Of a stretch of 64,000 nt of DNA, positions 13,401-33,061 are shown one piece after another. The stretch is from a virus. Numbering within the stretch: position 1 is the stretch's first letter; each line of letters opens with the position of its first letter. The stretch covers positions 1-64,000 of IMG/VR virus record IMGVR_UViG_3300018481_000021; one strand, given 5' to 3'. The position numbers were made by a program, and so were the translations under genes. The notes under the pieces are model-generated. The model was not told where the DNA came from and did not search any database. It worked only from the letters and a program-made list of their open reading frames with translations.

Positions 13401-16400
13401 CCTGCTTACCGATACCAATGATACGCGATGCCAATGACCGTAAATTGGCGACATGGCCTTCACGCTCATCCAGTAAGCGGGTGTAGTTACCAATAGTCGG
13501 GCTAAGTTCACCAAAGCTTTGCTCGATCTGGCTTGGCCCCCGAAACTGCAAGGACCAAGCATTAACTCGGCCGCGTGCTCCTGCCGTAGCACCTTGCACA
13601 ACAGTGTTACGTTGCGCGGCCCGATACCAACTAGCCAAGCTGGCAACCGGTTGCGACAAACCAAGATTGTCAAGTTGAGTAAGTATTTCCTGCCGATTAC
13701 CTTCTTGCAAAAATGTTCCATCAGGGATCAATTCCAGTAAACTATTAAACAACCGATTGCTATTTGGATCAGACGGCATGCCGAAGGCCGTAGCCAGTCG
13801 CGACTTGAACCGCGACCAAATAGACCGGTTATTCACAAACTCTGCTAAGCTTTCCGGCAGTGATGCTAACTTATCAGCAAAAGAAGTATTAGTAAGAGCC
13901 TCGGAAATAAACTCTTCAACGCTGCCGAAACCGCGCATGGTCTGCGCTTCAGGCTGCCAACCCATTTCGGTCCAGGCATTGTTGGCCTTGCGCATCGTGT
14001 CTTCGAGTGACTTACGTAAACCAGTATTGCTACGAATCTTGTAGAGAGTGGCAGCATGCACCGCTTCGTGCAACACAATGTTGACGGTATCCTCGGCTTG
14101 CTCTAGGTCAATGAAGATGCGATCTGACTTAGGGTCATAAAGACCCTGGAAGCCACGGCTCAGCTTGCGATTCTCGACTACTATTTTTAGCGGTTGCTTG
14201 GTTGAGTTTGGAAACGCGCTGCGTAGTTTCTGGATCAGCTTGAACGCCCGGTTATCCTGCGAAGCCGAGAAACTATCCTGCAATCCAGCAAGAATAGTAT
14301 CAACGCCACGCGGTCCATCCTTAAGCATGAATGCCAACCGCTCGCGCGGTGTCATTTTGGGCAGAGCCTTCTTGCGCTTCGGCGTCTTGGCCAATAATGT
14401 CTGCTCAATTCCAGGCAATACCGGAGCCAGCGGGTCCGATCCAACAACAGTTGTTGGATCGGACCCTTGCGCGGCCATGGCGAGCAACTGCTGTCGGTCG
14501 GTATCAGTTGCCACCGTGGATGGTGCAGAGGTAACACCTCCAGATTGCGGTTGTGGTGCTTTAGGGGTGAAAAGTTGCACCGCCACCGAAGGACTAGGTG
14601 GCGGTGCAACAATGGCCGGCCCTTGCGTCGCGGGAGCCGGTTGCGCCGCAGATTGGACGGGAGGCTGTGCAACCTGCGGCATCTCGGGAAGTAAGGCAGC
14701 TTGGGCCGTAGTCGGCCCAGCCATAGCTACATTCGGATCAGCTTGCGGAGTTGTCTGCACCTTAGCCGATGTGCGCGCGCGAATAGCCGCGACTTCTGCC
14801 GATCCGGCGTTCCTGACCACCTGCGGCTGAGCTGGAAAACTAGCTGGTTCCGCCGTAGTTATAGTTTGTCCTGGTCCGGTTGTAGCCGCTTGCCGCTTAC
14901 TCCAACGGGTCAAGGCTGCTGCGCGTGCCTGTTGACTACGCTTAACTGATTCATTAATTTTCGCTAACAGTGGTGGTTCTTCGGTGTCCGGGCCGAATGC
15001 TTCATCCAATTCCTTATCGATTTCTTGTTCTACAAGCTGCTTGATCACGTTTGGATCAGTGGGTCCAATCTCCTCAAATCCAGGCAATGGTTGCTCCATC
15101 ATCTTATCAGATGCGCTAGCCCGCTTCTTCTGATAAGCCTCACGCTGAGCTACAGCAAAATCATAAGCTCGTTTTGCTGTTTTGAACGCCGCGACAGCCT
15201 TGGCCTTATTACCGCGAGTACTCTCAATTCGTTTACGCGCACGGTCTAGTTCTCTTTCGTGTGCAGTAACAGTATTGTCCAATTCACTAGCGTACTCATT
15301 GAATGCTTGACCACCAACCGCAAGTTCAGCTTCACCAGATGGTGATAGGCCACTCTGCATTGATTCAGTCGGCGGCACGTTGATTTGCGTACCACGCCCA
15401 ACGGCTGCCGGTCCTGGTGGTGTAGGCGCAGGCAATCCTAGTTGCTGTTGCGGAGCTGGCAAGGCCAACATCGGTTGCGGCGCAGCTTGTTCTGCTGCTA
15501 ACCGATCACGCTCCGCATTAATCGCTTGCTGCTCGGCCTGATCCGCGCGTACCTTGTCTTGCTGTCTCTGCTTCAACCGGCGTGCGCCAGGAGCCGACAA
15601 AGCTACACCAAGTGGACCACCAATTGCTGCGCCACCTACCGCAGCTTCAGCGATGTTACCAGCATCGAAGTCGAGCCCGACAGTTTTCTTGCCAACTTCA
15701 GTACCGAATGCACCAGAACTTTCTTCGATTGATTCTGCACCAGCAGAAAGAGCACCGCGCTTGCCTATACTTGACGCACGTCCTTTCAAGCCAGTCCCGG
15801 CTGGAACTACACCACCTAATATTTTACTGGTCAACCGGCCAGTAATTGCGCCACCCACAGCCGCAATGCCTGCTGCTGTTTGCATAGCCTGTAAGCGTTG
15901 CTCGTCAGTCAGGCCAGCTTGTTCTGCTGCTTGACCGGCACCAGCAGCAGCTTCGCCAGCGGTAAATCCAGCACCAGCAGCCGCGTAGCCCGCTTCTCTA
16001 CCTGTTTTCTTTACAGTTGCACCAAGCGCTGCACGGGCACCGCGAATACCCAATGCCGCAATCTCACCAACTCCGGCTGTACCTAAAAAATATGGCGCAT
16101 TACTGGCGATGCCGTGTACCCACGAACGCCAATCAGCCCCAGCCCCTTCCTTGCTAAAATCAATCCACGAACGGTTAACGGCTTCCTGCCATTCTTTAGT
16201 TGTTTTCTTCAACAATTCCTGCGTTGCATTCGTGCCCGCTTCGCGCCAACCCTTGCCGGTTTCGGGGAATGCCAATTCAGTCAAGGCACCCACCGCCTCG
16301 ACGCCACTAGTTACGCCCATACCAGCAGAAACAAACGTATTCCAGGCGTTGTCCCAAACTGTGTCGGCATCAGTTGGTGCTGCGGGGGCAGTCTTTTCGT

Positions 16401-16617
16401 GTCGAACAATCTTACCATCAGGTTGTCGAGTGGCACGACCTTCCCAAAGATCACCAAGAGTAGTAATCGGCAACCGTGGGATAGTTGCCTGTGCTTGCGG
16501 CGGACCACCTTCTTCATCCAACATTGATTGTTGGATAGGCGTATCCAACGCTTGCTGAGGCGGCGGCCGCCCAGGCCACGTAGCCCGCCCAGCCCAAATG
16601 TCGCCAAGAGTGGGCAT
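10432..16617 (-). CDS. giant internal virion (ejection) protein with HExxH site
   Basis: 2061 aa, the largest gene, at the end of the structural operon as in podovirus ejectosomes (T7 gp16 position). Visible parts: a Gly/Ala-rich hydrophobic stretch near residues 190-290, a long Pro/Gln-rich low-complexity region near 380-780, then a zinc-protease-like IVLHEAVHAATLY (His850-Glu851, His854), and a long helical C-terminal half. Membrane insertion plus peptidase or cell-wall activity during DNA entry is the likely role. Palindromes lie at 11519, 14440 and 16517 (all in frame) and a weak one at 13367. The stop overlaps a downstream ATG. Confidence 0.85.
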   Translation of the reverse strand: MPTLGDIWAGRATWPGRPPPQQALDTPIQQSMLDEEGGPPQAQATIPRLPITTLGDLWEGRATRQPDGKIVRHEKTAPAAPTDADTVWDNAWNTFVSAGMGVTSGVEAVGALTELAFPETGKGWREAGTNATQELLKKTTKEWQEAVNRSWIDFSKEGAGADWRSWVHGIASNAPYFLGTAGVGEIAALGIRGARAALGATVKKTGREAGYAAAGAGFTAGEAAAGAGQAAEQAGLTDEQRLQAMQTAAGIAAVGGAITGRLTSKILGGVVPAGTGLKGRASSIGKRGALSAGAESIEESSGAFGTEVGKKTVGLDFDAGNIAEAAVGGAAIGGPLGVALSAPGARRLKQRQQDKVRADQAEQQAINAERDRLAAEQAAPQPMLALPAPQQQLGLPAPTPPGPAAVGRGTQINVPPTESMQSGLSPSGEAELAVGGQAFNEYASELDNTVTAHERELDRARKRIESTRGNKAKAVAAFKTAKRAYDFAVAQREAYQKKRASASDKMMEQPLPGFEEIGPTDPNVIKQLVEQEIDKELDEAFGPDTEEPPLLAKINESVKRSQQARAAALTRWSKRQAATTGPGQTITTAEPASFPAQPQVVRNAGSAEVAAIRARTSAKVQTTPQADPNVAMAGPTTAQAALLPEMPQVAQPPVQSAAQPAPATQGPAIVAPPPSPSVAVQLFTPKAPQPQSGGVTSAPSTVATDTDRQQLLAMAAQGSDPTTVVGSDPLAPVLPGIEQTLLAKTPKRKKALPKMTPRERLAFMLKDGPRGVDTILAGLQDSFSASQDNRAFKLIQKLRSAFPNSTKQPLKIVVENRKLSRGFQGLYDPKSDRIFIDLEQAEDTVNIVLHEAVHAATLYKIRSNTGLRKSLEDTMRKANNAWTEMGWQPEAQTMRGFGSVEEFISEALTNTSFADKLASLPESLAEFVNNRSIWSRFKSRLATAFGMPSDPNSNRLFNSLLELIPDGTFLQEGNRQEILTQLDNLGLSQPVASLASWYRAAQRNTVVQGATAGARGRVNAWSLQFRGPSQIEQSFGELSPTIGNYTRLLDEREGHVANLRSLASRIIGIGKQAYHQASNPELLDEVLVNSRYWSLHADKQMYDPANLAGIKQPGGAQLYNKLASQWAALSPLQQDFYRLVTFNSTAQRVRDMQQIMIWRLRARLDNATAELLERMITTLPVQSNAATGPAPSGIEIKYHRMPTAAELDTFINTLGLNPIKTKRVRADLLEVQKAFGKETGPYVPLRRVGSYYVYMTSPERVMQGVTQKQYDAMMAKNKLDEGGDLEILEEKYDAALQTYYLKMRNVVVGSVDTRQDADDLLADYKAGWNTRGLTIDKEKLALKQADVYQAAALQSANVEALRVSIKDDVTKMLGAGAGEHVSDRIMTYYLDKLPEGSVRKSQMRARKIAGASRDMMHVYATYVNGAAYFSGQMMYGAKLASAIGHDMDVAGKAMQAAGQYDQAEDLQKIQNHLKRADAAYDRLAAKDALQQDGAFLSMWRTIPQLTAAWLLTGPGTTLINAMQVWQVGFPLLGSKHGFARSAVTITKAYTDLFKPIAFETGREVGRAALGVPRTLKVGLSRKGFTPEIRNPSLPMFEQAADYLTDPGEKDHIKALALRKKIDFGLVADIQSISNRSSTKWMATQYMMDAAFIMPQASETMNRMVMGLSSYRLNKDTVTQGVMADPAITNKAEAIQQQLLDLAARDIDQSQWNYSAADRPAAFQHEYLRFATVFKTYPQRMLYSIMHNLVKSMKAKTPQERKIARKFVAGILATTFIGAGMLGWTTLDPFYVVAMALTWGLSDEDDPEQALRKAMQEWIDEDWQPLTELLLKGPLYAGNVVDASRMALPSLVPWQTIKKTATGPASVGTTLDTLVGEVVLGAPGSLIEQMTKAAKAMGEGNYATAAEQMTPKAFGINDTIRALNYANRGLVDIRGNEYMGPKEIGYADIIRRGLGFDPPEIASKKSARRAFFVADDNAKTEKSKLIADFKDAIENRDKDARRVAIQAMSAFNKKYPGYKITKESVKASVRRDRKEEYLVGEYGVAVRNKAQLRMLREIEARY
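11519..11537. repeat. dispersed palindrome
   Basis: Perfect arms, core ACTGT. In the giant ejection protein, read as IQQQLLD. Confidence 0.95.
13367..13386. repeat. weak palindrome-like copy
   Basis: TCCAAC and GTTGGA around an 8-nt centre, one base longer than other copies. In the giant gene; may be chance. Confidence 0.3.
14440..14458. repeat. dispersed palindrome with extended arms
   Basis: Core ACAGT; 8 further base pairs on each side are inverted repeats (14432-14466, 35 bp). In the giant gene, read as GSDPTTVVGSDP. Confidence 0.97.
16517..16535. repeat. dispersed palindrome
   Basis: Perfect arms, core TTGAT. N-terminus of the giant gene, read as IQQSMLDE. Confidence 0.95.
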
Positions 16618-17792
16618 TACTCTTCTTCCAACGTCGGAGGCTTAAGCATCTGTAAGTAGTTAGCAATTTCGTCGGTAAGCGGTAATTGTGTACCATCGGG
16701 AAGTTGTATCAGTGTACCATCTTCATTTGTCGTAGCCTGCGCCAACTCTTCCGGTTTGGTACGAGCAATACGGTCAGCAAGATAAAACGCGTTCTTACCA
16801 AGCCCCGGCACCGCCTGTTGCAACGCCGTGCTAAAGCCAGCACGTGTAGCTTCATCAGTTATAAAGGGATTAGACGGCAACGGAGTACCAAATTCATCAG
16901 TTGGCGCATCGCCGGTCAACCCCATTGCCAGTTCTTCCATTGTCGGTTCTGGCTTTCGCGGTGCCACGCCGATATTGGCAGTGCGCTTTGCCGTTTCTGC
17001 CGCAGTTAATCCCTGTTGTGCCACTTGACCCGGCAACAATGCTCTACGCTCAGCAGCTAATGCACTAGCCGCTGCGGCCGTGGCTCCAGATGCACCGGCT
17101 GATGCTTGCGATGCCTGCGCTTGAGCTGTTAATTGCTGCTGTTTGAATGGCCTTAATGCCTGCTCGCTCTCAGTTTGTGCTTGATACCGGCGAGCTTGCG
17201 CCATGCCCGTAGCTTCTTTAATACCCAATTCACTACGCGCAATTTCCATTTTACCAGTTGCTTCCGGTCCAAGCGCGTAAGCTTCGACCCCGCTCAAAAT
17301 ATCGTAGCCCAATTCGTCCATGTCCGTATAATCTTTGGCCGATGGTTTACCACCGACATTGGTCAATAACCGCACACCTTGCGGCGTGCGCTGTATGTCA
17401 TACTTCGTACCAGTACCTACCAACGCATGATACTTATTGATCAGCGGCACCGCTGCCATAGGATCAGTCTTAGCAACAGCAAAAGCATTCATCAAAGTTC
17501 GGTCCCCCTCGAACTTGGTCAGTTGCTGTGCGTTGCTGTTCCATTTATCATAATTATCAAAATCGCTATTCTTGAGAAATATTTGAGCACCAGCCTTGGT
17601 AGCTGCAATCGGGTCAGTTTTGAACTGGCCAGATTCGACCAACTGCGCAATTTCTTGCTCAGCCCGTTGACGCCGCTGACGCAACTGGCCCTGTTCTTGG
17701 ACTTGTTGAACTTGGGAATACAGGTCGAGCCCTTGTTGGCTACCGCCGGTAAACCCTTGACCAAACTGACCGATAGCGTCGAGCACGCCCAC
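16617..17792 (-). CDS. internal virion (ejection) protein
   Basis: 391 aa. The GTG start at 17792 is chosen because GGAGGAG stands 6 nt upstream inside the end of the previous gene; the longer frame to 17858 would overlap that gene. The composition is Ala/Gln-rich and helical (ATAAAASALAAERRALLPGQVAQQG), with an N-terminal QQVQEQGQLRQRRQRAEQEIAQL coiled coil. Position between a membrane-type protein and the giant protein suggests the T7 gp15-like member of the ejectosome. No enzymatic motif is visible. Confidence 0.75.
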   Translation of the reverse strand: MGVLDAIGQFGQGFTGGSQQGLDLYSQVQQVQEQGQLRQRRQRAEQEIAQLVESGQFKTDPIAATKAGAQIFLKNSDFDNYDKWNSNAQQLTKFEGDRTLMNAFAVAKTDPMAAVPLINKYHALVGTGTKYDIQRTPQGVRLLTNVGGKPSAKDYTDMDELGYDILSGVEAYALGPEATGKMEIARSELGIKEATGMAQARRYQAQTESEQALRPFKQQQLTAQAQASQASAGASGATAAAASALAAERRALLPGQVAQQGLTAAETAKRTANIGVAPRKPEPTMEELAMGLTGDAPTDEFGTPLPSNPFITDEATRAGFSTALQQAVPGLGKNAFYLADRIARTKPEELAQATTNEDGTLIQLPDGTQLPLTDEIANYLQMLKPPTLEEE

Positions 17793-17793
17793 G

Positions 17794-18717
17794 TCACACT
17801 CCTCCGAACATACCCGTTTGCGGGTTGTAAGCACGTCCTGGCCCACCCGCAAATCCACCAGCAGTACCGCCTAGCTGACCACCTAATTGAGCACCTAATT
17901 GAGCACCGGCAACGCTACCTGCTGGACCTAGATAAGCACCTAGCCCAACACCAGCCAACGTGCCAGCCGTAGCCCCAAGCCCGGCCCACGGACTACCCTC
18001 ACCACCCTGCGCGGCTTTAAATTGAGATTCTTGCACCTTAGCATTAAACGAAGCATCAATCAAGTCTTTTCTCGCGCCAAGGTTCTGACCCGGCGTGCCA
18101 AAAATATTGGCAAAGTTGGTAGCCGTTTGATTACCTAGCCCAACAGTCGAAGAACCTAGACCCGAACCGACTTGGGCAGCTTGCAACGCGCCTTGCTGAA
18201 TATTTGAACCAACTCCAAGCGCATCGCGGGCATACTGTTGACCGCGTTCCTCGACATCCTGACCGGCTTCCTTACCAGCCCGAACTTGTTCCAGCGCAGT
18301 CTGCAAACGCACGTTTTGATCCAAGGCCGCGCCACGCGTCATGCTCGGATCAATGCCGTAACTTTCCAAACGGGCAATGGCAGATTGCCGCGAAGCCTCG
18401 CCAGCCGCACCCACGTCGGCCATGGCCTTTTGGGTTTCGAGCTGGCGACGCTCCGGGGTATCATATTCACGAGCCTTCTGCATATACTCACGGGCAGCGG
18501 GGATGTATTCTTCCTCGGCTAAGTCTTGCATACCTTGCGCTTGGCGGAATACTCCGCGCATAGCTGGTACAGTTTCATTAATCAAACTATCCAAAGATGT
18601 ATTGACAGTATTTTCATAATCCTGCAACACAGGCATGCGTTGCCGGTACAAGTCCTGGAACCGCTTACCAAGCCGGTCGTATTTCTTACGCCAGTCTTCG
18701 CTGTCAAGAGTAGCCAT
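17794..18717 (-). CDS. internal virion (ejection) protein, membrane-interacting
   Basis: 307 aa. The N-terminal two thirds is helical and charged. The C-terminal 70 residues form a Gly/Ala-rich hydrophobic segment (GLGATAGTLAGVGLGAYLGP, then GAQLGAQLGGQLGG), as in small ejection proteins that insert into the outer membrane. ATG 18717 has GGAAG upstream, just downstream of the palindrome at 18735-18753. Likely the gp14-like member of the ejection complex, with the two following genes as partners. Confidence 0.75.
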   Translation of the reverse strand: MATLDSEDWRKKYDRLGKRFQDLYRQRMPVLQDYENTVNTSLDSLINETVPAMRGVFRQAQGMQDLAEEEYIPAAREYMQKAREYDTPERRQLETQKAMADVGAAGEASRQSAIARLESYGIDPSMTRGAALDQNVRLQTALEQVRAGKEAGQDVEERGQQYARDALGVGSNIQQGALQAAQVGSGLGSSTVGLGNQTATNFANIFGTPGQNLGARKDLIDASFNAKVQESQFKAAQGGEGSPWAGLGATAGTLAGVGLGAYLGPAGSVAGAQLGAQLGGQLGGTAGGFAGGPGRAYNPQTGMFGGV

Positions 18718-18734
18718 CGTTCTCTTCCTGCTTA

Positions 18735-18753
18735 TCCAACAACTGTTGTTGGA
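18735..18753. repeat. dispersed palindrome
   Basis: Perfect arms, core ACTGT. Intergenic, upstream of the ribosome site of the 17794 gene. Confidence 0.95.
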
Positions 18754-18759
18754 TACGCA

Positions 18760-21024
18760 TCACGGTCCCTCTAAAGCTTTCAAACGACGTTCCAACTCAG
18801 CCATCTTTGTGGGACTTGGAACAGCTAGTGTACCATCCCCACGCTGGTTTGTCAATAGCTCTACTGCTTCCCATAAAGCTCGAACAGTCGGGGCAAGACT
18901 ACGATCATCAACAATCGCTGGAATACCTGGATAACGTGTAGTTTTAACATGCGTCGGAACTATCGTACCAACATTAGGGGGCAACGGCTCAATAAATATA
19001 GTTCCGGTTCCACTACCAAGCAATTTATTGATAACGCCGGCACCAACACCTGGCTGTATACTAATAACATTGCCAACACCAATTCCAACTAGCGAAGCTC
19101 GTATACCAAGCCCGACGCCAATAATAATTTCATTACCAGTAGCACTACCGATTAATTGCCGTAGCGCACCTGCGCCAGTACCAATAAACACTGGCGCACC
19201 AAGTGCAGCCCCAGTAAGAGACCGCATGGTGCCGATGCCAGCACCGGTATATAATCCACTACCAGTACCTATACCTGTCAATGATGGAATAACAGCAATA
19301 CTAATACCATTGATTAGTTCGGTACCAATGGCCGAACCAATTAGTGCATTGTAAATACCAGCACCGGCACCTGTAATAGCTACAGAACCAATGGCGTTAC
19401 CACCCAATTGATTAATAACGCCGGCGGCATTACCTATAAAGGCATGCACACCAACTGCGCTACCGATCAATTGATTGGTAATACCAGTACTATTACCAAT
19501 TATAATCTCTGAACCGATAGCACTACCGCTCAATTGGCTAATAACACCAGCACCGCTAGCAATATATAATCCGGCACCCGTTGCAGTGCCAGTTAGTTGA
19601 CTAACAACGCCAACACCACTACCAGTTATAACCTCAGAACCGATGGCGTTACCTGTTAATTGATTAATAATACCTACAAAATCACCAGTAATAGCAACCG
19701 CAATTACAGAACCAATTGCCTCACCAACTAATTGGTTAATAACAGCATCGCTAGCACCAGAAATTATTTCAACACCAGACGCCTCTCCAACCAAGGCTGG
19801 AATATTAGCAATACCAAGACCATTAATTACTTGGGAACCAATTCCGGCACCAGTCAATTGGTTAATAGCACCAACACCAATACCAACCGGGCCAGTATCG
19901 CCGATTCCAACGCCAGTCAACTGGGCGCAATCGCCAGCACCCGCGCCTACAAATATTTCTAAACCAGTAACCGTTCCAATTAATTGTGCTGTTGAGCCGA
20001 CGCCAATGCCAGAAATTGAGGCAACACCAGATTGAATTTCAAGCAGTAAAGGTTCACCGCTTTCAAGTAATAATTGATTACCGTTTTCCAATAAATAATC
20101 AGATACTTCTCCAACTTCGGCACCCGCATCACCAAATGCAGTACCTACTAAGCTATTAATAGTACCCGCGCCAACACCAATAATAATCTGAGTACCCGCA
20201 GCTACGCCGCTTATACTATTTATTAAACCAGCACCATTGCCAACAAAAACTTCCGTACCGTTAGCAGCGCCAATTATTTTATTTATTGCACCCGCGCTAG
20301 TGCCAATCGGATTTTCAATATGGCTACCAGTTGCAACACCAGTAATCGACGCAATTACACCGCTACCCGATCCAGTATAATCCGCAACCGCTTCAGCCCA
20401 TTCAATTAATGTTGCAGAACTTTGAGTACAAGTAGTAGCCCACGTCGCGTTGACTACTGCATCATTGGCATCATAATAAGATGCATAACGATGATTCGAT
20501 GCAACCGTAGAAGACTGAATTTGAATATAGTTAGCTGGAACAGGTACACCAGCTCCAGCCGTACCTCGTCCTGCAAAAAAAGCCATCACCGTACTGGTGG
20601 CAGCCGGTACATTAGGTAATACTGGTGCTGGATCACCAGCAGTACTCGTACCGGTTGCAATATTAGTCGGCGCTTCGCCAGCACCAGTAATTTGAAAAAC
20701 GCTAAGTGAAGCTGAATCAATAACGATACCAATATTCCACGTCACCGTCATATTTATAGGTGGCGTACTACCAATCTTCCGACGATAAGTTAGCTGGCGT
20801 AAGCTAGGACCAGTACCAGAAATAGCATTCGCAACTAAAGACCACGTACCCCCCGCATTATCGGTTGGCACACTACCGGTAGGCACTGAAATAGTGTTGG
20901 ATTTACCGACAAGATGTACAACAAGAGAAGCATTGGCCGTAGGTGTAAACGCCGTAGCATTCGTAATACTGGACGCACCAGTATTATTGCTAGAAGCAAG
21001 TAACGCAGGTACACCGACAGCCAT
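18760..21024 (-). CDS. virion protein with about 20 tandem 21-residue repeats
   Basis: 754 aa. Residues 1 to about 230 form a beta-rich globular domain (SLVVHLVGKSNTISVPTG, TYRRKIGSTPPINMTVTWN). Residues about 232-690 are tandem repeats of 21 residues with consensus INQLxGxAxGSEVIxGxGAGV (about 20 units; a few have inserts), which suggests a regular beta-solenoid. The end (LAPTVRALWEAVELL, AELERRLKAL) is helical and may trimerise. Position between tail and ejection genes suggests a tail fibre or appendage. I do not recognise a named family for the repeat. Confidence 0.75.
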   Translation of the reverse strand: MAVGVPALLASSNNTGASSITNATAFTPTANASLVVHLVGKSNTISVPTGSVPTDNAGGTWSLVANAISGTGPSLRQLTYRRKIGSTPPINMTVTWNIGIVIDSASLSVFQITGAGEAPTNIATGTSTAGDPAPVLPNVPAATSTVMAFFAGRGTAGAGVPVPANYIQIQSSTVASNHRYASYYDANDAVVNATWATTCTQSSATLIEWAEAVADYTGSGSGVIASITGVATGSHIENPIGTSAGAINKIIGAANGTEVFVGNGAGLINSISGVAAGTQIIIGVGAGTINSLVGTAFGDAGAEVGEVSDYLLENGNQLLLESGEPLLLEIQSGVASISGIGVGSTAQLIGTVTGLEIFVGAGAGDCAQLTGVGIGDTGPVGIGVGAINQLTGAGIGSQVINGLGIANIPALVGEASGVEIISGASDAVINQLVGEAIGSVIAVAITGDFVGIINQLTGNAIGSEVITGSGVGVVSQLTGTATGAGLYIASGAGVISQLSGSAIGSEIIIGNSTGITNQLIGSAVGVHAFIGNAAGVINQLGGNAIGSVAITGAGAGIYNALIGSAIGTELINGISIAVIPSLTGIGTGSGLYTGAGIGTMRSLTGAALGAPVFIGTGAGALRQLIGSATGNEIIIGVGLGIRASLVGIGVGNVISIQPGVGAGVINKLLGSGTGTIFIEPLPPNVGTIVPTHVKTTRYPGIPAIVDDRSLAPTVRALWEAVELLTNQRGDGTLAVPSPTKMAELERRLKALEGP
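18960..20330 (-). repeat. 63-bp tandem coding repeats
   Basis: The DNA encoding the 21-residue repeats. Units keep the reading frame and diverge in sequence, with conserved codons for NQL-x-G and GSE. One unit has a 3-residue insert and one about 26 extra residues (YLLENGNQLLLESGEPLLLE). Confidence 0.75.
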
Positions 21025-21049
21025 AGCTTATGCCGCGCAGCACTTTTGA

Positions 21050-21469: not shown

Positions 21470-21487
21470 TTCACTCTCCTTGCGTGA

Positions 21488-21506
21488 TCCAACAACAGTT
21501 GTTGGA
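21488..21506. repeat. dispersed palindrome
   Basis: Perfect arms, core ACAGT, 3 extra paired bases. Intergenic, upstream of 21469. Confidence 0.95.
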
Positions 21507-21519
21507 TCAGGTTGATTGG

Positions 21520-24836: not shown

Positions 24837-24857
24837 GCTACTGCCCCGTACCTTTGA

Positions 24858-24876
24858 TCCAACATTTAATGTTGGA
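24858..24876. repeat. dispersed palindrome
   Basis: Perfect arms, core TTTAA, 3 extra paired bases. Intergenic. Confidence 0.95.
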
Positions 24877-26718
24877 TCATGCTATCTTGCACTCTCGTCT
24901 TGTCTCAGCAACGATAATCCGTTGCACTTCTGCTGATCCTGATACTTCCAAATAAAATCTTGTCGCCTTGTAACCTTCCGGCAAAGAATGCACTTTTTCA
25001 TCAGTAATAATTTTAGTATACTTCACTTGGCCATCAGTCAGCAAAGTAAATTGAATATTATTGAAACTGAATAGCGCTGTAGTGTCATACAACGGTTCAC
25101 CACCTATTGGCTGGATTGGCGGCAACCCGCTTAACGCCGGGATAACATCAGGTCGAGAAATCTGCCGATTAAAATCGTACCCATCAAAAACATCCAACGG
25201 ACCAAAAGCCATTCGACTATCATTATATGCTTGCATTGCCAACAACAATTGATCCAAATCGTCTTCATTTTCTACTTGTTTAAAAAGTATCTGCACAGCA
25301 CCAAGATTAAGCGGCTTAGTATGAATAAACTCTTTAGATCGAAAAGTAGTCGAAAACCGAGCATCTAAACGAGCATCAAATTTACTAATCAAGTCATCCT
25401 GAATAACCATTAAATCACCGCTACGCGGATCAGTATCAAGTCCGGTCACACCGAAATAGCGATCCAATGGCATAAAAGAAATTGGCTCAAAAGGTGGTAA
25501 CGCAATTGCAAAACCACGTGACGGTTCATAGAACGCAATATAATACGAACCATACGAAGCAGCAAAAATAGCTTCGGGGAAATAAGCGATAAACTCTTCG
25601 CGGGTCAGTAAAGCATTAGTCGGGCGAGTCAACCCATTGGCTGAAATCGAACACAGGCCATTCGTCGAACAAAACATTACTGCATTAGACATGACCACAA
25701 TGGATCGTTGTGATGTGCATGGCTCAGGATCAGGCAGTTTTTGAATAGCCATTTGCGCCGGGTGATTACCAGACAATATAAACGGCACACCTTTAGTCAA
25801 CACCACTACCGAATTGAGCAGCGGTGCAATACCAACAATTACGTCGCTTACAGTATACGCATAGGCTTGCGGCCAACTATGTGGAAGATAAGGCGTTGAA
25901 AAATACACGGTACGATCATGGAATGCAGCAAAAGCACCAGAACTATGCAAGATCAAACCCTGAACATTCTCTGGAGCTGGATCGTTATCGAAACTATCCA
26001 GTATTGGCTGCAACGGTACTTGGTCAGGAGGCATGCTATCGTTAAATGATCCAACTGTAGATGCAATCTCTCCGACTTTGTAGTAGGCTCCAGAAGTTTG
26101 CTCGCCAGTAGCCGAACGATAAATAAAAATCTTCACCGCATTAGCGGGTGCTACCGTAAATCCGCTAATAACCCAAGTACCAAGATTACCTTGCGCGATA
26201 GTAGTTGGTGACGGTGGACCAATGGCACCAAAACGATCGACATAAGTATAAACGTAAGCTCGAATATCATCGGTCCCGGCCGGGGGCGAAACATTTGGCG
26301 CACTCGCCGGACGAACTATACCAGAAGATGAAGATGGCACATCCGTCGCCAATTCAGCATAGGTAATTACCCGCAACCCAGTTGATGTGTTATCGGTAAA
26401 ATAAATGCGATCAAACGCATCCGTGGCAAGCGGCGATTTTAAAGCCGATGCATTGATATCGGTACTAGTAAAATAGGTAAATTCATCGCTGTTAGTTCGA
26501 TAAATCTTAATTGCACGACGGTAAACCACTCCAGTAGGAGTTAGAAAACCTTCAGACACTAATGAGCGAAAACCACGTAAATCACCATTACCAACTTTAA
26601 TATTGGTCGCAAAGCTTGCTTGACTGTCGTCGAGTAGACGATCAGCATATCTAGGCGCAAGGCCCTGGAAGTTTGGCACGACAAACGCAGTGATCTCCGT
26701 TCTCCTAAGAACCCCCAT
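24877..26718 (-). CDS. tail nozzle/tubular-B-like protein
   Basis: 613 aa, beta-rich. The start resembles podovirus tail proteins (YADRLLDDSQASFATNIKVGNGDLRGF), followed by TSTGLRVITYAELA, repeated blade-like segments and many aromatic turns, so a beta-propeller or stacked-beta fold is likely. Order after the adaptor and collar genes fits the tail nozzle (T7 gp12/P22 gp10 position). The ATG at 26718 is the last base of the palindrome plus its flank; no clear Shine-Dalgarno precedes it, so a downstream GTG at 26679 cannot be excluded. Confidence 0.65.
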   Translation of the reverse strand: MGVLRRTEITAFVVPNFQGLAPRYADRLLDDSQASFATNIKVGNGDLRGFRSLVSEGFLTPTGVVYRRAIKIYRTNSDEFTYFTSTDINASALKSPLATDAFDRIYFTDNTSTGLRVITYAELATDVPSSSSGIVRPASAPNVSPPAGTDDIRAYVYTYVDRFGAIGPPSPTTIAQGNLGTWVISGFTVAPANAVKIFIYRSATGEQTSGAYYKVGEIASTVGSFNDSMPPDQVPLQPILDSFDNDPAPENVQGLILHSSGAFAAFHDRTVYFSTPYLPHSWPQAYAYTVSDVIVGIAPLLNSVVVLTKGVPFILSGNHPAQMAIQKLPDPEPCTSQRSIVVMSNAVMFCSTNGLCSISANGLTRPTNALLTREEFIAYFPEAIFAASYGSYYIAFYEPSRGFAIALPPFEPISFMPLDRYFGVTGLDTDPRSGDLMVIQDDLISKFDARLDARFSTTFRSKEFIHTKPLNLGAVQILFKQVENEDDLDQLLLAMQAYNDSRMAFGPLDVFDGYDFNRQISRPDVIPALSGLPPIQPIGGEPLYDTTALFSFNNIQFTLLTDGQVKYTKIITDEKVHSLPEGYKATRFYLEVSGSAEVQRIIVAETRRECKIA

Positions 26719-26736
26719 CCAACATTTACTGTTGGA
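26718..26736. repeat. dispersed palindrome with extended arms
   Basis: Core TTTAC; outer arms ACCCCCA and TGGGGGT extend the inverted repeat to 33 bp (26711-26743). At the start of the tail nozzle gene. Confidence 0.97.
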
Positions 26737-26782
26737 TGGGGGTCGTCAGCCTACCGATGCGCCAGTCAGCCGACCACTTCAA

Positions 26783-27049: not shown

Positions 27050-27065
27050 AGCTCAGCTCCTTCCG

Positions 27066-28055
27066 TTACACGTCGAACATGACACGCGCGAGGACAAAAA
27101 ACGGTGGCACAGTTACGACATGTTGATGATCACCAAGTGGCTCAATTCCATGTGTATGTCCTGCTACACCATTGTAACCACCAAAAGTTACTGATTCCAC
27201 ACGCGCCGCTCCAATACCTTCACCAGTAGCTGCAAGTACCCTATTAATAATCACAGATGGCAAATTAGTATTACCAAGTTGCGCATTCGTAACAATATGA
27301 CCATGACCTCCAGCAGCAGAAGTAAGACTTTGCGATGGATTTATCTCTGGCACTCCACCTTCTCCACCAACTCCAAACGTTGCTGTCCATCCCTTGATAT
27401 ACTTACCTCGTAAATCAGGCGTACCATTTGTACCGTCGCATAACTTCAAATGAGATGGCAAATTATTAATATTCCCAAACCAATCAAACACGATGCCATC
27501 AAACATTTGCGAATTAGTAATTACTCGGCCCATATACCCCGGCCGCCGTGCATCAAAATTAGCATTGGTATCTGGTGGAATATAAATTGCATTCTCGCTA
27601 GCAGCATACGGTTGATCGAGCGGTGTACTTGCTGCGCGCCAAAAATTCGCATGATATGTATCAAAACGAACCGCCGTCTCAGAAAGATCGGCATCCAATA
27701 ATTTGTGTCCATCCAAATCAAGATCACCAAGCATAGTATCGCCAGAACGCTGTAGAAAACTATCTGCTATGCCGGCAGTCATACGAACTTCAAACCGCGA
27801 ACCAGAAGCAAACGTTCTCGCTGCCGTACCCTCTTGGCCACGAATCACAGTTACTACATCTGCAACTACAGCCGTTGCTGTAACAATTTCCGAAGCACCA
27901 GCACCGTCAATCATAGTGGCGCGAAAAACGTCACCGAATGCCAATACCGGCATCCGCAAACCACCACCAGTTTCCAACTGCACAGCAGTGGCGTTAGAAA
28001 CAACTGTTGCCGTAATCAACGAAGATGCACGATTAGAAAACTTAAACTTAGTCAT
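27066..28055 (-). CDS. tail fibre with collar-type tip
   Basis: 329 aa. The N-terminal domain is beta-rich, and the middle has a LGDLDLDGHKLLDADL motif. The C-terminal third is of phage tail collar type: LPSHLKLCDGTNGTPDLRGKYIKG followed by His-x-His pairs (HGHI, HTHG, HQHV) that in such tips bind metal. It overlaps the upstream gene by ATGA. Likely a short tail fibre with receptor-binding function. Confidence 0.8.
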   Translation of the reverse strand: MTKFKFSNRASSLITATVVSNATAVQLETGGGLRMPVLAFGDVFRATMIDGAGASEIVTATAVVADVVTVIRGQEGTAARTFASGSRFEVRMTAGIADSFLQRSGDTMLGDLDLDGHKLLDADLSETAVRFDTYHANFWRAASTPLDQPYAASENAIYIPPDTNANFDARRPGYMGRVITNSQMFDGIVFDWFGNINNLPSHLKLCDGTNGTPDLRGKYIKGWTATFGVGGEGGVPEINPSQSLTSAAGGHGHIVTNAQLGNTNLPSVIINRVLAATGEGIGAARVESVTFGGYNGVAGHTHGIEPLGDHQHVVTVPPFFVLARVMFDV

Positions 28056-28624
28056 ACTACCGCTCCAGATGGCAAGGCACTACGACTTTTGCGTATTCCA
28101 ATCCAAAATGAATTTTGTTTATTATTAACATTAGTAATTGTAAAACTAATTCTAGCTGGTAAAGTCAATGCCGCCAATTCCCCAATCAAAAATAGCTCAG
28201 TCGATACATTGCCGGGATACAACTCCAGTCCGCAACCATCCGATTGCGCTGGTTCAATCTTAGTAGTTACACTCTTAATAGCAGACTGGTCGCAACCAAC
28301 TAATATAATCTTAATAGAAATAAACGGAGCCGCGAGTATTACTTGTCCAATTTGCGGATCAGCCCGAGTATCCGCCATATTGTATTGCAATGCAGTTCGA
28401 CAATACGGATAACTAATGTTGTATGCTCCAATTGGATGTTCGACAGAACGTGACGTATCCAAAAAATTAGCCGTGAAACAGCCCGGTTGGAACAACTCTT
28501 GACCTTCAACAATGACTACACTAAACGATAAATCATCAAATACATATTGCAAAGCATTAACCCCGAGTGCAACCAAATTGCCACCCGACGTTTCCAAGTA
28601 AGCATACGGCGGAGTACCACTCAT
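28052..28624 (-). CDS. hypothetical virion protein (190 aa)
   Basis: No named domain. Beta-rich sequence with several Cys (CFTANF, YPYCRTALQY, DGCGLELYPG). The start is ATG 28624, which overlaps the upstream stop as ATGA; ATG 28633 is an alternative. It is in the adaptor/tail section of the late operon, so a tail component is likely. Low-GC codon use matches its neighbours. Confidence 0.7.
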   Translation of the reverse strand: MSGTPPYAYLETSGGNLVALGVNALQYVFDDLSFSVVIVEGQELFQPGCFTANFLDTSRSVEHPIGAYNISYPYCRTALQYNMADTRADPQIGQVILAAPFISIKIILVGCDQSAIKSVTTKIEPAQSDGCGLELYPGNVSTELFLIGELAALTLPARISFTITNVNNKQNSFWIGIRKSRSALPSGAVV

Positions 28625-29004
28625 AACCGGCATAACCCTGGACGACTTAACCCTTGACGAATAACAATTGATTTACCATTACTAGATTTAATCGCAGCAA
28701 AATTAATATGAAAAAGAAGCATTCCATCGTTATTTCGATATATTACAACTTGATTAATATCTTCATTGGGTGGTGTCACTGGAAAAGTAATTGGATTACA
28801 TCCCAACCATCCTTGAGAACTAACTGTCTTATTGGTAAGAATAACTGGTGGAGAACGTAGTGGACCAGCAGCCACCACATTACTATCATTACCAGTAAAC
28901 GGATAATCGAGTCGTGTAATAACACATGAAAATTCATCGTTCAGCCAATGCACCAGCGATGTGGCAAAACGCACTCGTGCAATACTGTAAATTGATAATG
29001 TCAC
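28621..29004 (-). CDS. hypothetical virion protein (127 aa)
   Basis: GTG start with GGGAGG 5 nt upstream, overlapping the preceding stop. The sequence (MTLSIYSIARVRFATSLVHWLNDEF...) is beta-rich, ending in KSIVIRQGLSRPG. No family recognised. It lies among head-tail joining genes. Confidence 0.7.
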   Translation of the reverse strand: MTLSIYSIARVRFATSLVHWLNDEFSCVITRLDYPFTGNDSNVVAAGPLRSPPVILTNKTVSSQGWLGCNPITFPVTPPNEDINQVVIYRNNDGMLLFHINFAAIKSSNGKSIVIRQGLSRPGLCRL

Positions 29005-29726
29005 CAGTACCTCCCGCTGCCACCGCGTGAGCTACCGTGTGAAAACCTCCCTTGCAAATTAACACCCAAAAAGCGAAACGGCGTAATCACCTGTTCACGA
29101 ATATTAGTGTGCGAAGCTATCGCATCACGAGCTGCATTCGACATCATCGAACGATAACGTTTCTCCATCCGCACGCCCAAGTCAGGCTTGTAGTTAACAC
29201 CGGGACTAAGATAGATATCACCAAGAACACCACATTTAATCGCATCAAAAAATCGTTCCTTGATCCAATCTGGATGACAAAGATCAATAGGCATCATATT
29301 GCAAAAGAACTTAACTTGGTTAGTACTACCTTCGGGTATAGTCGGAAATATTTGAAGCTGTGTTGATGGCGTTTGGAAAAAATACAACGGGTCGCCGATT
29401 TCATCTTCGTTTATCATCTGATCAGCAGCCGGATCAGAACTAGATACAGCAGTCAAAGGAAAACCATCGCTGAGACGATAACCGGCCAACGTTGAAATCA
29501 ATTCGGCTTTGAAGTCAGTCAGCTCTACTGAATATCCCGATATAGTCGGATGGAGCGTAATCGGGCCAACCCATTCCCGCCAGCATTGACTGCGTTGGAA
29601 AAAGTAACGCAATTTCGTCAATATCAAATACTTGATATGATCCAATGGAACATTGGGTGCAGCGGGGGCAATCGCGTTGATCCAATCCAACGGTGCCGTA
29701 ATGCCGCCAGGAAATGCTTCGCTCAT
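29001..29726 (-). CDS. head-tail adaptor/connector-type protein (241 aa)
   Basis: Alpha/beta protein with YLILTKLRYFFQRSQCWREWVGPITL, a TLQIFPTIPEG-like strand, and a C-terminal FDAIKCGVLGDIY...MEKRYRSMMSNAARDA helical part. This pattern is seen in gp11/gp6-type phage adaptors with the strand-helix-KRYR ending. Translationally coupled by ATGA to both neighbours. Assigned by pattern and operon position, not by a confident family match. Confidence 0.6.
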   Translation of the reverse strand: MSEAFPGGITAPLDWINAIAPAAPNVPLDHIKYLILTKLRYFFQRSQCWREWVGPITLHPTISGYSVELTDFKAELISTLAGYRLSDGFPLTAVSSSDPAADQMINEDEIGDPLYFFQTPSTQLQIFPTIPEGSTNQVKFFCNMMPIDLCHPDWIKERFFDAIKCGVLGDIYLSPGVNYKPDLGVRMEKRYRSMMSNAARDAIASHTNIREQVITPFRFLGVNLQGRFSHGSSRGGSGRYW

Positions 29727-30049
29727 GTCCGCAAGTCCCCTTCAAACATCTTGAGCATCGCGGCAGCACGGCCATCTGTAGCATACTCGTCATCAGCCAG
29801 TTCTACCCAACCAACAGCAAATCGAATCAATGACGGAATGAGTGTTTCCGGTAAATCAAATTCCTCCGTAGCTGCGACGATCTGGTAAGCAGGTTGAGCA
29901 AAACGACCAATGAAATAATCTGGTCGTATCCGTCTCGTATCCAAAATACCGAGATTTAACGCCGCAATAATGCGAGCGTCAGTATACCGATCCAAGTCCA
30001 TATCCTGGAGCGTTTCGCGTACGCGCGAAACCAGGACGGAAACTTTCAT
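29723..30049 (-). CDS. phage adaptor protein (head-completion type)
   Basis: 108 aa: VRETLQDMDLDRYTDARIIAALNLGILDTRRIRPDYF...FDLPETLIPSLIRFAVGWVELADDEYATDGRAAAMLKMFEGDL. The R-x-x-LxD...x-R-x-x-D-x-x-I-x-x-xLN pattern followed by a membrane-like helix pair is typical of small podovirus adaptors (DUF6682 type) that sit between portal and nozzle. Overlaps both neighbours by ATGA. Confidence 0.75.
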   Translation of the reverse strand: MKVSVLVSRVRETLQDMDLDRYTDARIIAALNLGILDTRRIRPDYFIGRFAQPAYQIVAATEEFDLPETLIPSLIRFAVGWVELADDEYATDGRAAAMLKMFEGDLRT

Positions 30050-30531
30050 TTTTTGCTACTTTTCTTCGGCGGCTTAGGTTCTACGTATAGCTCTAGTTGT
30101 GGCGTACCGTCCTTTTCATAGGTCAATTCGCCATCGGCATCGAGTACATAGACTAGCGGCTGACCATCTTCATCATAAAGCCGGTTTCCTCCCGTATCCA
30201 CGGCCCATGGCGGTTCGCCATCAACCAATACTGGAACGTCGCTAATCTGCACCTCCTCTTCGTCCAATCCAACAACAGTTGTTGGATCATCAGTCAAGGC
30301 CGCTTGACCCTCCGCAAATGCATTTCCGAGTTGTAGCACAGTATCTTGATCAACAACTACTTCCTCAGCAACGAACAAATCACCAGTCGTCGGATCAACG
30401 TAAGTCGGGTCCGGTTTATCCGGCACAAAATCATCGCTCTCGTCATCAACCTCCTTCATATAAGGTATCTTCGCCATTTCGTGGTTCCAGCCAAACAACC
30501 GACCAGTTCGACGATCCTGTAGACGGCGCAT
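30046..30531 (-). CDS. acidic hypothetical protein downstream of the capsid gene
   Basis: 161 aa, highly acidic and Pro/Lys at the end (VEPKPPKKSSKK). No domain is recognised. The start at ATG 30531 (MRRLQDRRTG) has AGGG 9 nt upstream; ATG 30540 is possible. The palindrome at 30268-30286 is read as DDPTTVVGLDEE in a flexible-looking stretch. It lies directly after the capsid gene and hairpin, where head-completion or decoration proteins are often found. Confidence 0.65.
   Translation of the reverse strand: MRRLQDRRTGRLFGWNHEMAKIPYMKEVDDESDDFVPDKPDPTYVDPTTGDLFVAEEVVVDQDTVLQLGNAFAEGQAALTDDPTTVVGLDEEEVQISDVPVLVDGEPPWAVDTGGNRLYDEDGQPLVYVLDADGELTYEKDGTPQLELYVEPKPPKKSSKK
30268..30286. repeat. dispersed palindrome
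   Basis: Perfect arms, core ACAGT. In the acidic protein gene, read as DDPTTVVG. Confidence 0.95.
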
Positions 30532-30551
30532 GTCCAACATCCCTAGTTGGT

Positions 30552-30584
30552 GGGTGAGGTAGAGTTGCCCGCTCTACCTCACCC
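30552..30584 (-). terminator. 13-bp hairpin after the capsid gene
   Basis: GGGTGAGGTAGAG (30552-30564) pairs with CTCTACCTCACCC (30572-30584). It stands just downstream of the capsid stop on the coding strand, without a U-tract; a partial terminator or 3'-end stabiliser would lower expression of later genes relative to the capsid. Confidence 0.65.
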
Positions 30585-30590
30585 AAAAGG

Positions 30591-31556
30591 TTACGGTGCC
30601 CGCGAAACGTAAGCAGCCGCAATTGATTCCGGTTTCAGCACCTTGAACCCATACACCTGCAACCCGCGCAGGATCGTGCCGAAAGTTGTTTCGGAACGAA
30701 TTGTCTCCATTTCGCTAAGCTGACTAGCAAACGACAAGCCAGTATTGTGACCGGCCAAAACCCAATACTTCGTACCAGTATCTGATGCCGTAGGCAACAG
30801 ATTGGTCTGGTACACCGTAAACCGGGATAGCTGGCCGACCCGGCCATTGCGTAGAGCTGACGTGGCGTCGCCCATGATGTTGGCAGCACGCACATCCGAC
30901 TTGAGCAGCATACCCACGGCCCAAGCCGGGAGAAGTACCCAACGTCCCGGCTCCGGTACGTTCTGCTCGTCGAGCACCACACCAAGATCAATCAGCAGAG
31001 AAATAATCCCAACCACGCCAGAAGCGTCAGCCGGCCCCACAACGACCGCCGCGCCCGTCTTGCCGAGATTGATGTTGTTGCTGATCTTCCCGGCCGTGTC
31101 GCCTGTATTGTCAGCGCTGACCTGGGTAGGGATTGCCGCCAACACCTGCGTATCGATGGCGATCTTCAACTGTTCTGACGCGTCGTCAGACCAGATGTCC
31201 ATCAAGTCCATGTCCGCCTGCACACGGAACACGTCGTCGAGAATGGCAGCGAAGTACTTACCTTTATCGATCAGCAACGTAGTCACGTTGCTAGCCGGCC
31301 GCTCAATAGAGAGTGCCTGAGTAGCCGTGTAATCGTTGATGGTCAAGGTTGGGATCGTACGGATGATAACCTTATCACCCTGGTTCTTGATCTCACCCTC
31401 GTAGTCTGTGTTGCTGATCGCAGCCAGCACACATGCCGCGTAGAACTTCTCCAGCAACCGTCCACTCCAGATTTCTGGAATGAACGTACCCGACAAGGCC
31501 GGGTTGTGCGCTGTCGTACCCGCCGGTGACGGCGTGCCAGAAATTGGATAGGCCAT
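30591..31556 (-). CDS. major capsid protein
   Basis: 321 aa, HK97-fold type major head protein. Features: SGTFIPEIWSGRLLEKFYAACVLAAISNTDYEGEI at the N-terminus (the FxPEIWS...LxxFY start of podovirus coat proteins), the extended GDKVIIRTIPTLTIN and KYFAAILDDV strands, and WVLLPAWAVGMLLKSDVRAANIMGD of the A-domain. It is flanked by the scaffold gene upstream and a hairpin downstream. AGGGG precedes the ATG. Main shell protein. Confidence 0.9.
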   Translation of the reverse strand: MAYPISGTPSPAGTTAHNPALSGTFIPEIWSGRLLEKFYAACVLAAISNTDYEGEIKNQGDKVIIRTIPTLTINDYTATQALSIERPASNVTTLLIDKGKYFAAILDDVFRVQADMDLMDIWSDDASEQLKIAIDTQVLAAIPTQVSADNTGDTAGKISNNINLGKTGAAVVVGPADASGVVGIISLLIDLGVVLDEQNVPEPGRWVLLPAWAVGMLLKSDVRAANIMGDATSALRNGRVGQLSRFTVYQTNLLPTASDTGTKYWVLAGHNTGLSFASQLSEMETIRSETTFGTILRGLQVYGFKVLKPESIAAAYVSRAP

Positions 31557-31583
31557 AGCCTGAGCCCCTTGCTAGAGACACTA

Positions 31584-31602
31584 TCCAACAATTGTTGTTG
31601 GA
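31584..31602. repeat. dispersed palindrome
   Basis: Perfect arms, core ATTGT. Between scaffold stop and capsid start. Confidence 0.95.
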
Positions 31603-32697
31603 TTAGTACCTCGATTGACCACCACGGATATTACCCGACGCAAGCGAACGCTTGATACGGGCTTCCATCTGAGTGATCTCGGCTTCTGTGAGTGATTTCG
31701 GATTCCGCACCTTACGGTCATAATACCGCCTGATGTCCGATGTACTCAGCGGAGCCTCGGGGGCGTCAGTCGTGATGATGGGGTCGGTACGCCCGCGCCC
31801 ACCATTCGGAGAGGCTAGGTTGCCGATACGGGTCTGCCCGGTCGCAGTTTTCGACCGTGCGCGGGGTATCGGGGCCGTAGCTTCCTGTTCCGTGACAAAA
31901 CCCTCAAAGATCATCTTGACCCTAGAGTACTGCTCTTTATCCATGGCGTCTTTGAGGATGTTAAACCTCGCCACGCCAGAAAATGGGTCTACCTGCTTAA
32001 GCCAGTCCAAGAACAGGGGGTCATCGTCCTGTTCACGCCAACTTTGCAAGTTAGTATCAAGCCACGCGTGCAAGCGTGTAATTTTTTGTTCCTCAGAGCT
32101 TCGACCAAGAGTGTCAACGTGGGAAGTAAGGTTATCAACCTTGGGCTTGATCTCACTAAGCTGCGAGGCAACTGCCCTAGACGATACCTCCTCTGCCACC
32201 CTGGCAATCATGTCGAAGAACTGTGGACCATAATCCTTCAATTCTTCAGGAGTAATATTACCATAGTCTGGACCCCCTGTCAAGGACTTTTTTTCGGGGG
32301 TTATTTCTGGTTTTTTTACAAGTTGCGCAGTAAGTTCTGTCAATTGCCTTTGTAAATTTTGAGTAACCCTAGCCTGTTCTTCCGCCTCGCTGCGTAGCCG
32401 ACGAACTTCAGAATTATACCTACCTCGTATAGTGTGCAACTGCTTGCGCAACTGCTCAGCGTCGTCGCCATCGTCATGCTGTTCCGCTTGCGGTTCCGCT
32501 TGCGGTTCCGGCTGCGGTTCCGGTTGCGGTTCCGGTTGCGGTTCCGGTTGCGGTTCCGGTTGCGGCTGCAGTTCTGGTTGCGGTTCCGGCTGTTGCTCGC
32601 CATTCATCATTGCTTTATACGCAGCCTGCCCGCGTTCAATCTTATCCCGAACTTCCTGCGGGATAAACACATGCTGATCTTCGCCGACCTCAGCCAT
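31603..32697 (-). CDS. scaffolding protein
   Basis: 364 aa directly upstream of the capsid gene. The N-terminal part has a Pro-Gln-Pro-Glu tract (about 12 repeats), then a long charged coiled coil (LRKQLHTIRGRYNSEVRRLRSEAEEQARVTQ...), then a helical C-terminal region ending in basic residues. This architecture, helical and acidic with a basic end, is typical of podovirus scaffolds that bind the coat protein. The stop is immediately preceded on the genome by the palindrome 31584-31602. Confidence 0.85.
   Translation of the reverse strand: MAEVGEDQHVFIPQEVRDKIERGQAAYKAMMNGEQQPEPQPELQPQPEPQPEPQPEPQPEPQPEPQAEPQAEQHDDGDDAEQLRKQLHTIRGRYNSEVRRLRSEAEEQARVTQNLQRQLTELTAQLVKKPEITPEKKSLTGGPDYGNITPEELKDYGPQFFDMIARVAEEVSSRAVASQLSEIKPKVDNLTSHVDTLGRSSEEQKITRLHAWLDTNLQSWREQDDDPLFLDWLKQVDPFSGVARFNILKDAMDKEQYSRVKMIFEGFVTEQEATAPIPRARSKTATGQTRIGNLASPNGGRGRTDPIITTDAPEAPLSTSDIRRYYDRKVRNPKSLTEAEITQMEARIKRSLASGNIRGGQSRY
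32490..32585 (-). repeat. 12-bp tandem repeat encoding PQPE
   Basis: Units of GGTTCCGGTTGC in near-perfect tandem array in the scaffold gene; likely slippage-prone. Confidence 0.85.
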
Positions 32698-32702
32698 CTT
32701 AC

Positions 32703-32816
32703 TTACCTACCCACACCAGCAAAAGGATTACGTCTAGGACAAAGCGGATTTTGACATGTCTGTTCAGATGTCGGAGGACAAATACAACCCATCGGTTTCG
32801 AAACTTCCTCAGCCAT
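32703..32816 (-). CDS. 37-aa Cys-rich peptide (not predicted by length-cut callers)
   Basis: ATG 32816 to TAA 32703 encodes MAEEVSKPMGCICPPTSEQ... with cysteines at positions 11, 13, 21 and 26, CxC-x7-C-x4-C. AAGG stands upstream, and the stop of the previous gene is 6 bp before the start, so it fits the operon spacing. The following scaffold start is 6 bp away. A zinc- or disulfide-bound mini-protein is plausible. Function unknown. Confidence 0.6.
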   Translation of the reverse strand: MAEEVSKPMGCICPPTSEQTCQNPLCPRRNPFAGVGR

Positions 32817-32821
32817 CTTTT

Positions 32822-33061
32822 CTACCTTCGCAACTGCTGCGTAGCCTTATCGCTTTCATCCAACAATTGTTGTAGGATGAAAGCACAACCCGCGTGCCAG
32901 TCTCTTTTTTCCGACCCAGGCCCGCATGCCATACGATACATCGCCGGTAACACGTTCTGTCGCCAATGATTGAGTACAACTGAAAAAGCTTCCTCGCGTA
33001 ACAACATGCGAATAGCTTGATCCAACCGTTCGTCAATGCCAAGCTCTAATAGCTTACTCAT
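32822..33061 (-). CDS. small helical protein (79 aa)
   Basis: Starts MSKLLELGIDERLDQAIRMLL at ATG 33061, which overlaps the phosphatase stop (TAATG). The C-terminus contains a palindrome with extended arms (32852-32884) read as FILQQLLDESDK. Helical throughout, with no recognised domain. Located between secreted accessory genes and the scaffold. Confidence 0.65.
   Translation of the reverse strand: MSKLLELGIDERLDQAIRMLLREEAFSVVLNHWRQNVLPAMYRMACGPGSEKRDWHAGCAFILQQLLDESDKATQQLRR
32859..32877. repeat. dispersed palindrome with extended arms
   Basis: One arm mismatch (TGTAGGA); outer GCTTTCA/TGAAAGC extend it to 33 bp (32852-32884). Read as ILQQLLDE. Confidence 0.93.

Follow-up and report, generated by a model that had tools for sequence, protein, structure and literature searches.

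The stoperators of Cluster A mycobacteriophages such as L5 and Bxb1 are asymmetric 13-bp sites that are bound by the repressor throughout the genome; from one related phage to the next, motif and repressor differ together (PMC6550527). The repressor binds them as a monomer (PMC9283540). In the Bacillus prophage SPbeta, a short conserved repeated element, SPBRE, is bound by one master regulator, MrpR (PMC10516654). Among mutational processes that act on inverted repeats, replication template switching homogenises the arms of such repeats in coding genes, in one case converting a repeat with 5-bp arms and a 5-bp spacer into a 16-bp perfect repeat (PMC8604942), and it can create perfect stems in a single event (PMC8794818).

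The window analysed here, a 64-kb stretch of a 65,330-base viral record, carries a 19-bp palindrome, TCCAACA-N5-TGTTGGA, dispersed over the phage genome. Like stoperators, the sites are numerous and scattered: in the window we counted 35 perfect cores, against none in shuffled sequence, and ~43 plausible copies once up to two mismatches are allowed, and in the whole record 36 perfect cores. Stoperators, however, lie mostly in one orientation to transcription, whereas the window sites are palindromes and often fall inside genes. SPBRE is a 15-bp motif at ~10 promoters, fewer places than the ~43 found here, where more than half of the sites are within genes.

Coordinates are given without strand for all copies. 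Perfect cores occur at 362-380 (within the DNA polymerase gene), 2677-2695, 5158-5176, 6386-6404 (immediately 3' of the stop of ORF 5150-6385), 9752-9770, 11519-11537, 16517-16535, 18735-18753 (intergenic), 21488-21506, 24858-24876 (intergenic), 30268-30286, 37972-37990, 40351-40369 (intergenic), 42784-42802 (occupying the gap between ORFs 40370-42784 and 42803-44434), 44427-44445, 47625-47643, 49574-49592, 50729-50747, 52491-52509, 52929-52947, 54130-54148, 54709-54727, 55583-55601 (within the AAA ATPase gene), 57381-57399 (within the VWA metallopeptidase gene), 58387-58405, 59223-59241, 60178-60196, 60530-60548, 61192-61210 and 62489-62507. Copies with one mismatch lie at 3609-3627 (within the SNF2 helicase gene), 7673-7691, 13367-13386 (spacer 6) and 47772-47790, and one with two mismatches lies at 4858-4876. 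The copies compared with sites of a relative and those with extended arms are described below.

The closest relative, L064 (5 kb, capsid 79%), has kept TCCAAC-N6/7-GTTGGA, with other spacers, at the corresponding positions around the capsid gene. Its site 3618 corresponds to the perfect core 31584-31602 upstream of the capsid gene, a conserved position; site 4664 matches the place of core 30533-30551 (two mismatches) after that gene; and site 67 is near the position of the perfect core 36653-36671. Capsid searches with window and L064 queries returned no relative closer than L064. Megablast against isolate phages found no close relative, nor did exact-peptide searches with the portal and a 613-aa protein, and scanning for the core pattern returned a single match in each stretch listed.

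We then scanned 16 relatives, comprising the Rhizobium phage RHph_TM3_14A and 15 uncultured capsid relatives fetched whole. RHph_TM3_14A (MN988472; L123 and L124), the nearest isolate (portal 41%, capsid 55% identity), lacks the TCCAACA family and carries ~55 unannotated copies of GTTACC-N5/6-GGTAAC, ~1 per kb, which are unrelated in sequence to TCCAACA and likewise show regular spacing and an intergenic preference. RHph_TM27A and TM29 have dispersed palindromes too; the records of the TM phages do not annotate them, and the literature searched yielded no description of them. In total, 12 of the 16 relatives possess their own dispersed palindrome of differing sequence, with none in shuffled sequence at 0-1 mismatches. 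These are GTTACC-like in six (TTACCG-N3 in one of the six), and otherwise TTGATCC-N2 (full form TTGATCC-N2-GGATCAA), CCACTAC-N1/2, TACTCC-N0/1, TTAACAG-N1, GTTACT-N6 and GTTACA-N5/6. Such differing palindromes are what would be expected of co-evolving pairs of site and protein. In several relatives the distance between half-sites is not constant but shifts by 1 bp, which is not typical of operators bound by a rigid dimer. Between TM3_14A and TM27A, which are 99.6% identical, there are 0 changes in 660 core positions. At one palindrome (22551 in TM3_14A, L123; TM27A, L323), four clustered changes are confined to the spacer, TGCTGA becoming ACAGGA; the new spacer equals that of TM3_14A site 40456, and the 4-base change is not a simple spacer inversion.

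Spacing of the window sites is more regular than random (CV 0.60 vs 0.97 expected, p 0.0005). Regular spacing was also seen in TM3_14A and in three uncultured relatives (G002, G007 and G015) and was not found in G003, G009 or G014. Unlike stoperators, the dispersed palindromes are regularly spaced in the densest genomes, in which close-set copies are rarer than chance, and their binder is represented by candidates only. Sites are preferentially intergenic (92 of 434 vs 33 expected over 13 genomes; 15 of 45 vs 2.5 in the window), although most are nevertheless within genes. In-gene copies in the window are almost always read in two frames, giving IQQQLLD or DPTTVVG-like peptides.

The extended consensus is symmetric, with a first flanking pair R..Y on the outside and a spacer that is mostly YNR, which fits a symmetric protein such as a homodimer on duplex DNA. 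We found no strand asymmetry of the motif. Sense-strand mismatches over the 434 sites of the 13 genomes were G-U in 151 cases and A-C in 164 (p 0.50); by position, the G-U and A-C counts were 61 and 57 for the core, 51 and 60 for the inner neighbouring pair and 39 and 47 for the outer one. Gene strands came from a simple longest-ORF method, in which mis-assigned strands would weaken, but not conceal, a strong G-U bias. The lack of a G-U excess over A-C indicates that RNA hairpins are not what selection keeps. The cores look like duplex-DNA protein sites, and the ~43 copies are probably bound by a symmetric phage protein and would work in the manner of dispersed repressor or stoperator sites.

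Four copies carry perfect outer arms of 8, 7, 7 and 6 bp, at 14440, 26718, 32859 and 51051, respectively. The first (14432-14466; core 14440-14458, 8-bp outer arms) has 17-bp perfect arms in total around a 1-nt centre and lies within a 2061-aa DarB-like gene on the minus strand, where it encodes GSDPTTVVGSDP. The second (26711-26743; core 26718-26736, 7-bp outer arms) has 14-bp perfect arms and a 5-nt loop and covers the likely start codon of the gene for the 613-aa protein (24877-26718, minus strand). The third (32852-32884; core 32859-32877, 7-bp outer arms) has 15-bp arms with one mismatch, which is within the core (TGTAGGA) and not the outer arm; it lies in a small, conserved minus-strand gene, a homologue of L064 2206-2436. 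The fourth (51045-51075; core 51051-51069, 6-bp outer arms) is intergenic, between ORFs 50827-51033 and 51122-52423. All four inverted repeats with site-specific outer arms reported in the first-pass annotation were recovered at their coordinates; the range that it gave, 14432-32884, is right for three of them, with the fourth, at 51045-51075, falling outside it. A fifth, imperfect case absent from that annotation spans 45896-45942, inside the 1000-aa ORF 44460-47462, with long, bulged outer arms around core 45910-45928. The extended copies share no context: 14440, 32859 and 45910 are in genes, 26718 covers a start codon and 51051 is intergenic.

Of the 45 copies with at most two mismatches in the whole record, 41 have only 0-3 bp of contiguous outer pairing; the remaining four have 6, 7, 7 and 8 bp, and none has 4-5 bp. 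When right flanks were swapped among copies, a mean of 0.27 copies had contiguous outer pairing of at least 6, and four or more such copies arose in 5e-5 of 20,000 permutations. The extended arms are thus real and exceptional, rare and non-random. The first outer pair is A..T in 31 of the 45 copies and is part of the extended consensus of the site, which leaves the arm that is truly local to a copy ~1 bp shorter than first noted. Past this pair, the four arm sequences have no bases in common.

Dispersed palindromes do not as a rule carry outer arms. Contiguous outer arms of at least 5 bp occur once in ~355 sites of the other 12 genomes; with short mismatched junctions allowed, there is a small excess, 12 of 433 sites (window included) scoring at least 6, vs 4.8 by swapping. 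The idea that relatives keep their outer arms complementary therefore fails for the dispersed palindromes of these 12 genomes as a whole, and no relative holds the four extended sites at the same positions. Long-stem cases elsewhere include TM3_14A 54422 (intergenic, 10-bp arms), G014 21106 and G002 23110.

The explanation that we favour, to which we give a probability of roughly 0.55, is a stoperator-like set of double-stranded DNA sites, at a few of which the hairpin formed by the core seeded template switching during replication and so lengthened the arms. Each core, with 7-8-bp arms and a 3-5-nt spacer, would be a ready-made inverted repeat seed. The nascent or template strand could fold on it during replication, and the polymerase would briefly copy one flank from the other, as in quasipalindrome template switching, making the flanks reverse complementary. 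The product would be an inverted repeat that pairs perfectly but has outer sequence found at that site alone, and the outer arms at four or five copies would be secondary to the core.

Several observations point this way. The extended copies show perfect, lengthened arms at a short-spacer seed (arms 14-17 bp, spacer 1-5), as template switching would leave them. They resemble known quasipalindrome products, in which the arms of a short inverted repeat are likewise perfected and lengthened, within coding genes as well (PMC8604942, PMC8794818); unlike those, their seed would be a repeated, putatively functional site, so that the same core is joined to different local arms. The clustered change in one spacer between TM3_14A and TM27A is a further observation in its favour. 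Outside the family, the genome has 18 perfect inverted repeats of at least 9 bp with spacers of 3-15, vs 2.4 in shuffles, which suggests that something makes inverted repeats generally in this genome, although the excess includes some probable terminators. One imperfection counts against the model: at 32859 the outer arm is perfect and the core is not, which requires a mutation of the core later than the formation of the arms. For the polarity of arm replacement only L064 at 32859 is comparable, and it is too diverged to polarise. Of the origins proposed in the first pass, hairpin-templated repair or template switching is the best supported, by inference. Template switching is the most likely origin of the outer arms.

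Three perfect 14-bp inverted repeats outside the family were also noted. One, at 14574-14610 and counted in the excess above, shares a gene with the 14432 copy and lies 108 bp from it; those at 30551-30585 and 60982-61015 are intergenic, the former directly 3' of the capsid gene and adjoining a decayed core site.

An alternative that we consider unlikely, yet the most serious of the rivals, is that the extended copies are functional hairpins of RNA (or of single-stranded DNA, or cruciforms) selected at these places, for example to control translation at the 26718 copy, to set transcript stability at the 51051 copy or to terminate transcription. Each of the four folds much more stably than shuffled sequence (z -5.5 to -7.3, DNA parameters), the 26711-26743 repeat overlaps a likely start codon, and a few sites in relatives (TM3_14A 54422, G014 21106) also lie in long stems. 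A kept RNA structure should, however, leave a sense-strand G-U bias, and none is seen at core, inner or outer pairs over the 434 sites. The two wobble pairs of 45910 are G-T on the non-coding strand only. At least two copies are deep in genes, and their positions are not conserved in relatives. No match was found in Rfam, and, read by eye, neither strand has a T run after any of the four repeats. An intrinsic terminator reading of the four arms was rejected for want of a U-tract. The RNA hairpins suggested in the first-pass annotation thus find no support, most extended copies also being in genes.

Considerably less probable is a mobile origin, in which the palindrome inserted itself into inverted repeats, for instance terminators, that were already there. 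Tolerated inserts could account for the restriction of in-gene copies to almost only two frames; some copies align to gaps in TM3_14A homologues, as site 55583 does; and TM3_14A 54422 resembles a site inside a hairpin. The one locus at which prior inverted repeats could be looked for speaks against this origin. At 32859, the homologous L064 gene gives a gap-free alignment (RDWHAGCAFILQQLLDESDKATQQLR vs RDWFAGRASVVQEFLDDVDNYREQLR) but lacks the core and the arms alike, which suggests that the site arose by substitution and was not inserted in an older inverted repeat. The protein alignment is also gap-free across site 362, again consistent with substitution. The intergenic L064 sites, at matching places with different spacers, and the rarity of close-set copies in the densest genomes argue against mobility as well.

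Two further readings have very little to recommend them. Extra contacts of the binding protein, making extended or higher-affinity operators, would suit arms that are symmetric about the core, but four arms that share nothing past the first pair could not all be read by a sequence-specific protein. Slightly less probable still, a chance tail of a large site family would give some extension among 45 copies and agrees with the small excess in relatives, but not with four contiguous arms of 6-8 bp, none of 4-5 bp and a permutation probability of 5e-5.

Returning to the set of double-stranded DNA sites, we looked for genes that accompany the palindromes. The AAA ATPase gene (phrog_1297; 54873-56354, plus strand) is present in 11 of 13 palindrome genomes and 0 of 4 without, and the DUF2201 metallopeptidase/VWA gene (56785-58191, plus strand) in 13 of 13 and 1 of 4, respectively. 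As a test of the prediction, isolate phages with a VWA gene were examined. The cyanophage Planktothrix phage Pag-Yong1 (OL906435, L325), which has VWA and ATPase genes, contains its own palindrome, GGTTCAG-N1-CTGAACC, in 32 regularly spaced copies in 1-50000 (CV 0.55); the N4-like phages Presley, Axy11 and pYD6-A, which have the VWA gene, showed no dispersed palindrome in the 50 kb scanned. Among uncultured contigs, at least five copies of one palindrome were found in 19 of 69 with VWA vs 0 of 41 other viral contigs (p 5e-5), or in ~13 of 63 once likely duplicates were removed (p 0.001). The association of palindrome with VWA and AAA genes may reflect shared ancestry rather than function. More palindromes were noted in VWA-bearing viral contigs (L331-L410): TTGCTA, TTCATAC, AACTTAT, TACTAC, CTAACA, GACTCC, GACTTA and AAGTTAG.

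Candidate binders of the core in the window are a winged-helix-like protein (58432-58821, plus strand; below the Pfam cut-off) and, second, an Arc-like repressor-like protein (50088-50477, minus strand) that was not found in relatives. Gene clustering and searches for Arc-like, phrog_2440, ParB, HTH_3 and RHH_1 proteins over 17 genomes yielded no binder common to the palindrome genomes, nor did Pfam scans of the small genes that neighbour VWA in the window and in TM3_14A. Many relatives have a ~230-300-aa gene upstream of the polymerase, and the Rhizobium homologue of window ORF 6472-9282 is labelled 'integrase'. Near the start of the rightward gene block, 52665-52772 forms a 108-bp AT-rich imperfect palindrome (54-bp arms, 78% paired), a possible origin.

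Taken by themselves, the outer arms are probably a mutational by-product, and if the extended copies formed as proposed, they would show in nature how a protein-binding site can seed template switching. Among related phages the sites themselves are spelled entirely differently, yet they remain symmetric and spread over the whole genome. Site-protein co-evolution thereby becomes directly testable, as it has been for immunity in cluster A mycobacteriophages, and cultured Rhizobium isolates are included in the group. The pairing of AAA and VWA genes is common in phages, including N4-like ones; the link with palindromes offers a first concrete hypothesis for it. Tentatively, and well short of an even chance, lineage-specific palindromes and the MoxR-like AAA ATPase/VWA pair might together constitute an undescribed genome-organising or silencing system in a widespread group of ~50-67-kb phages that takes in the window phage, the Rhizobium TM phages, Pag-Yong1 and many uncultured members, with regular spacing in the densest of them. 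Were that so, its roles could lie in condensation, segregation, packaging or transcription roadblocks, and the few outer arms would be a by-product of replication through palindromes.
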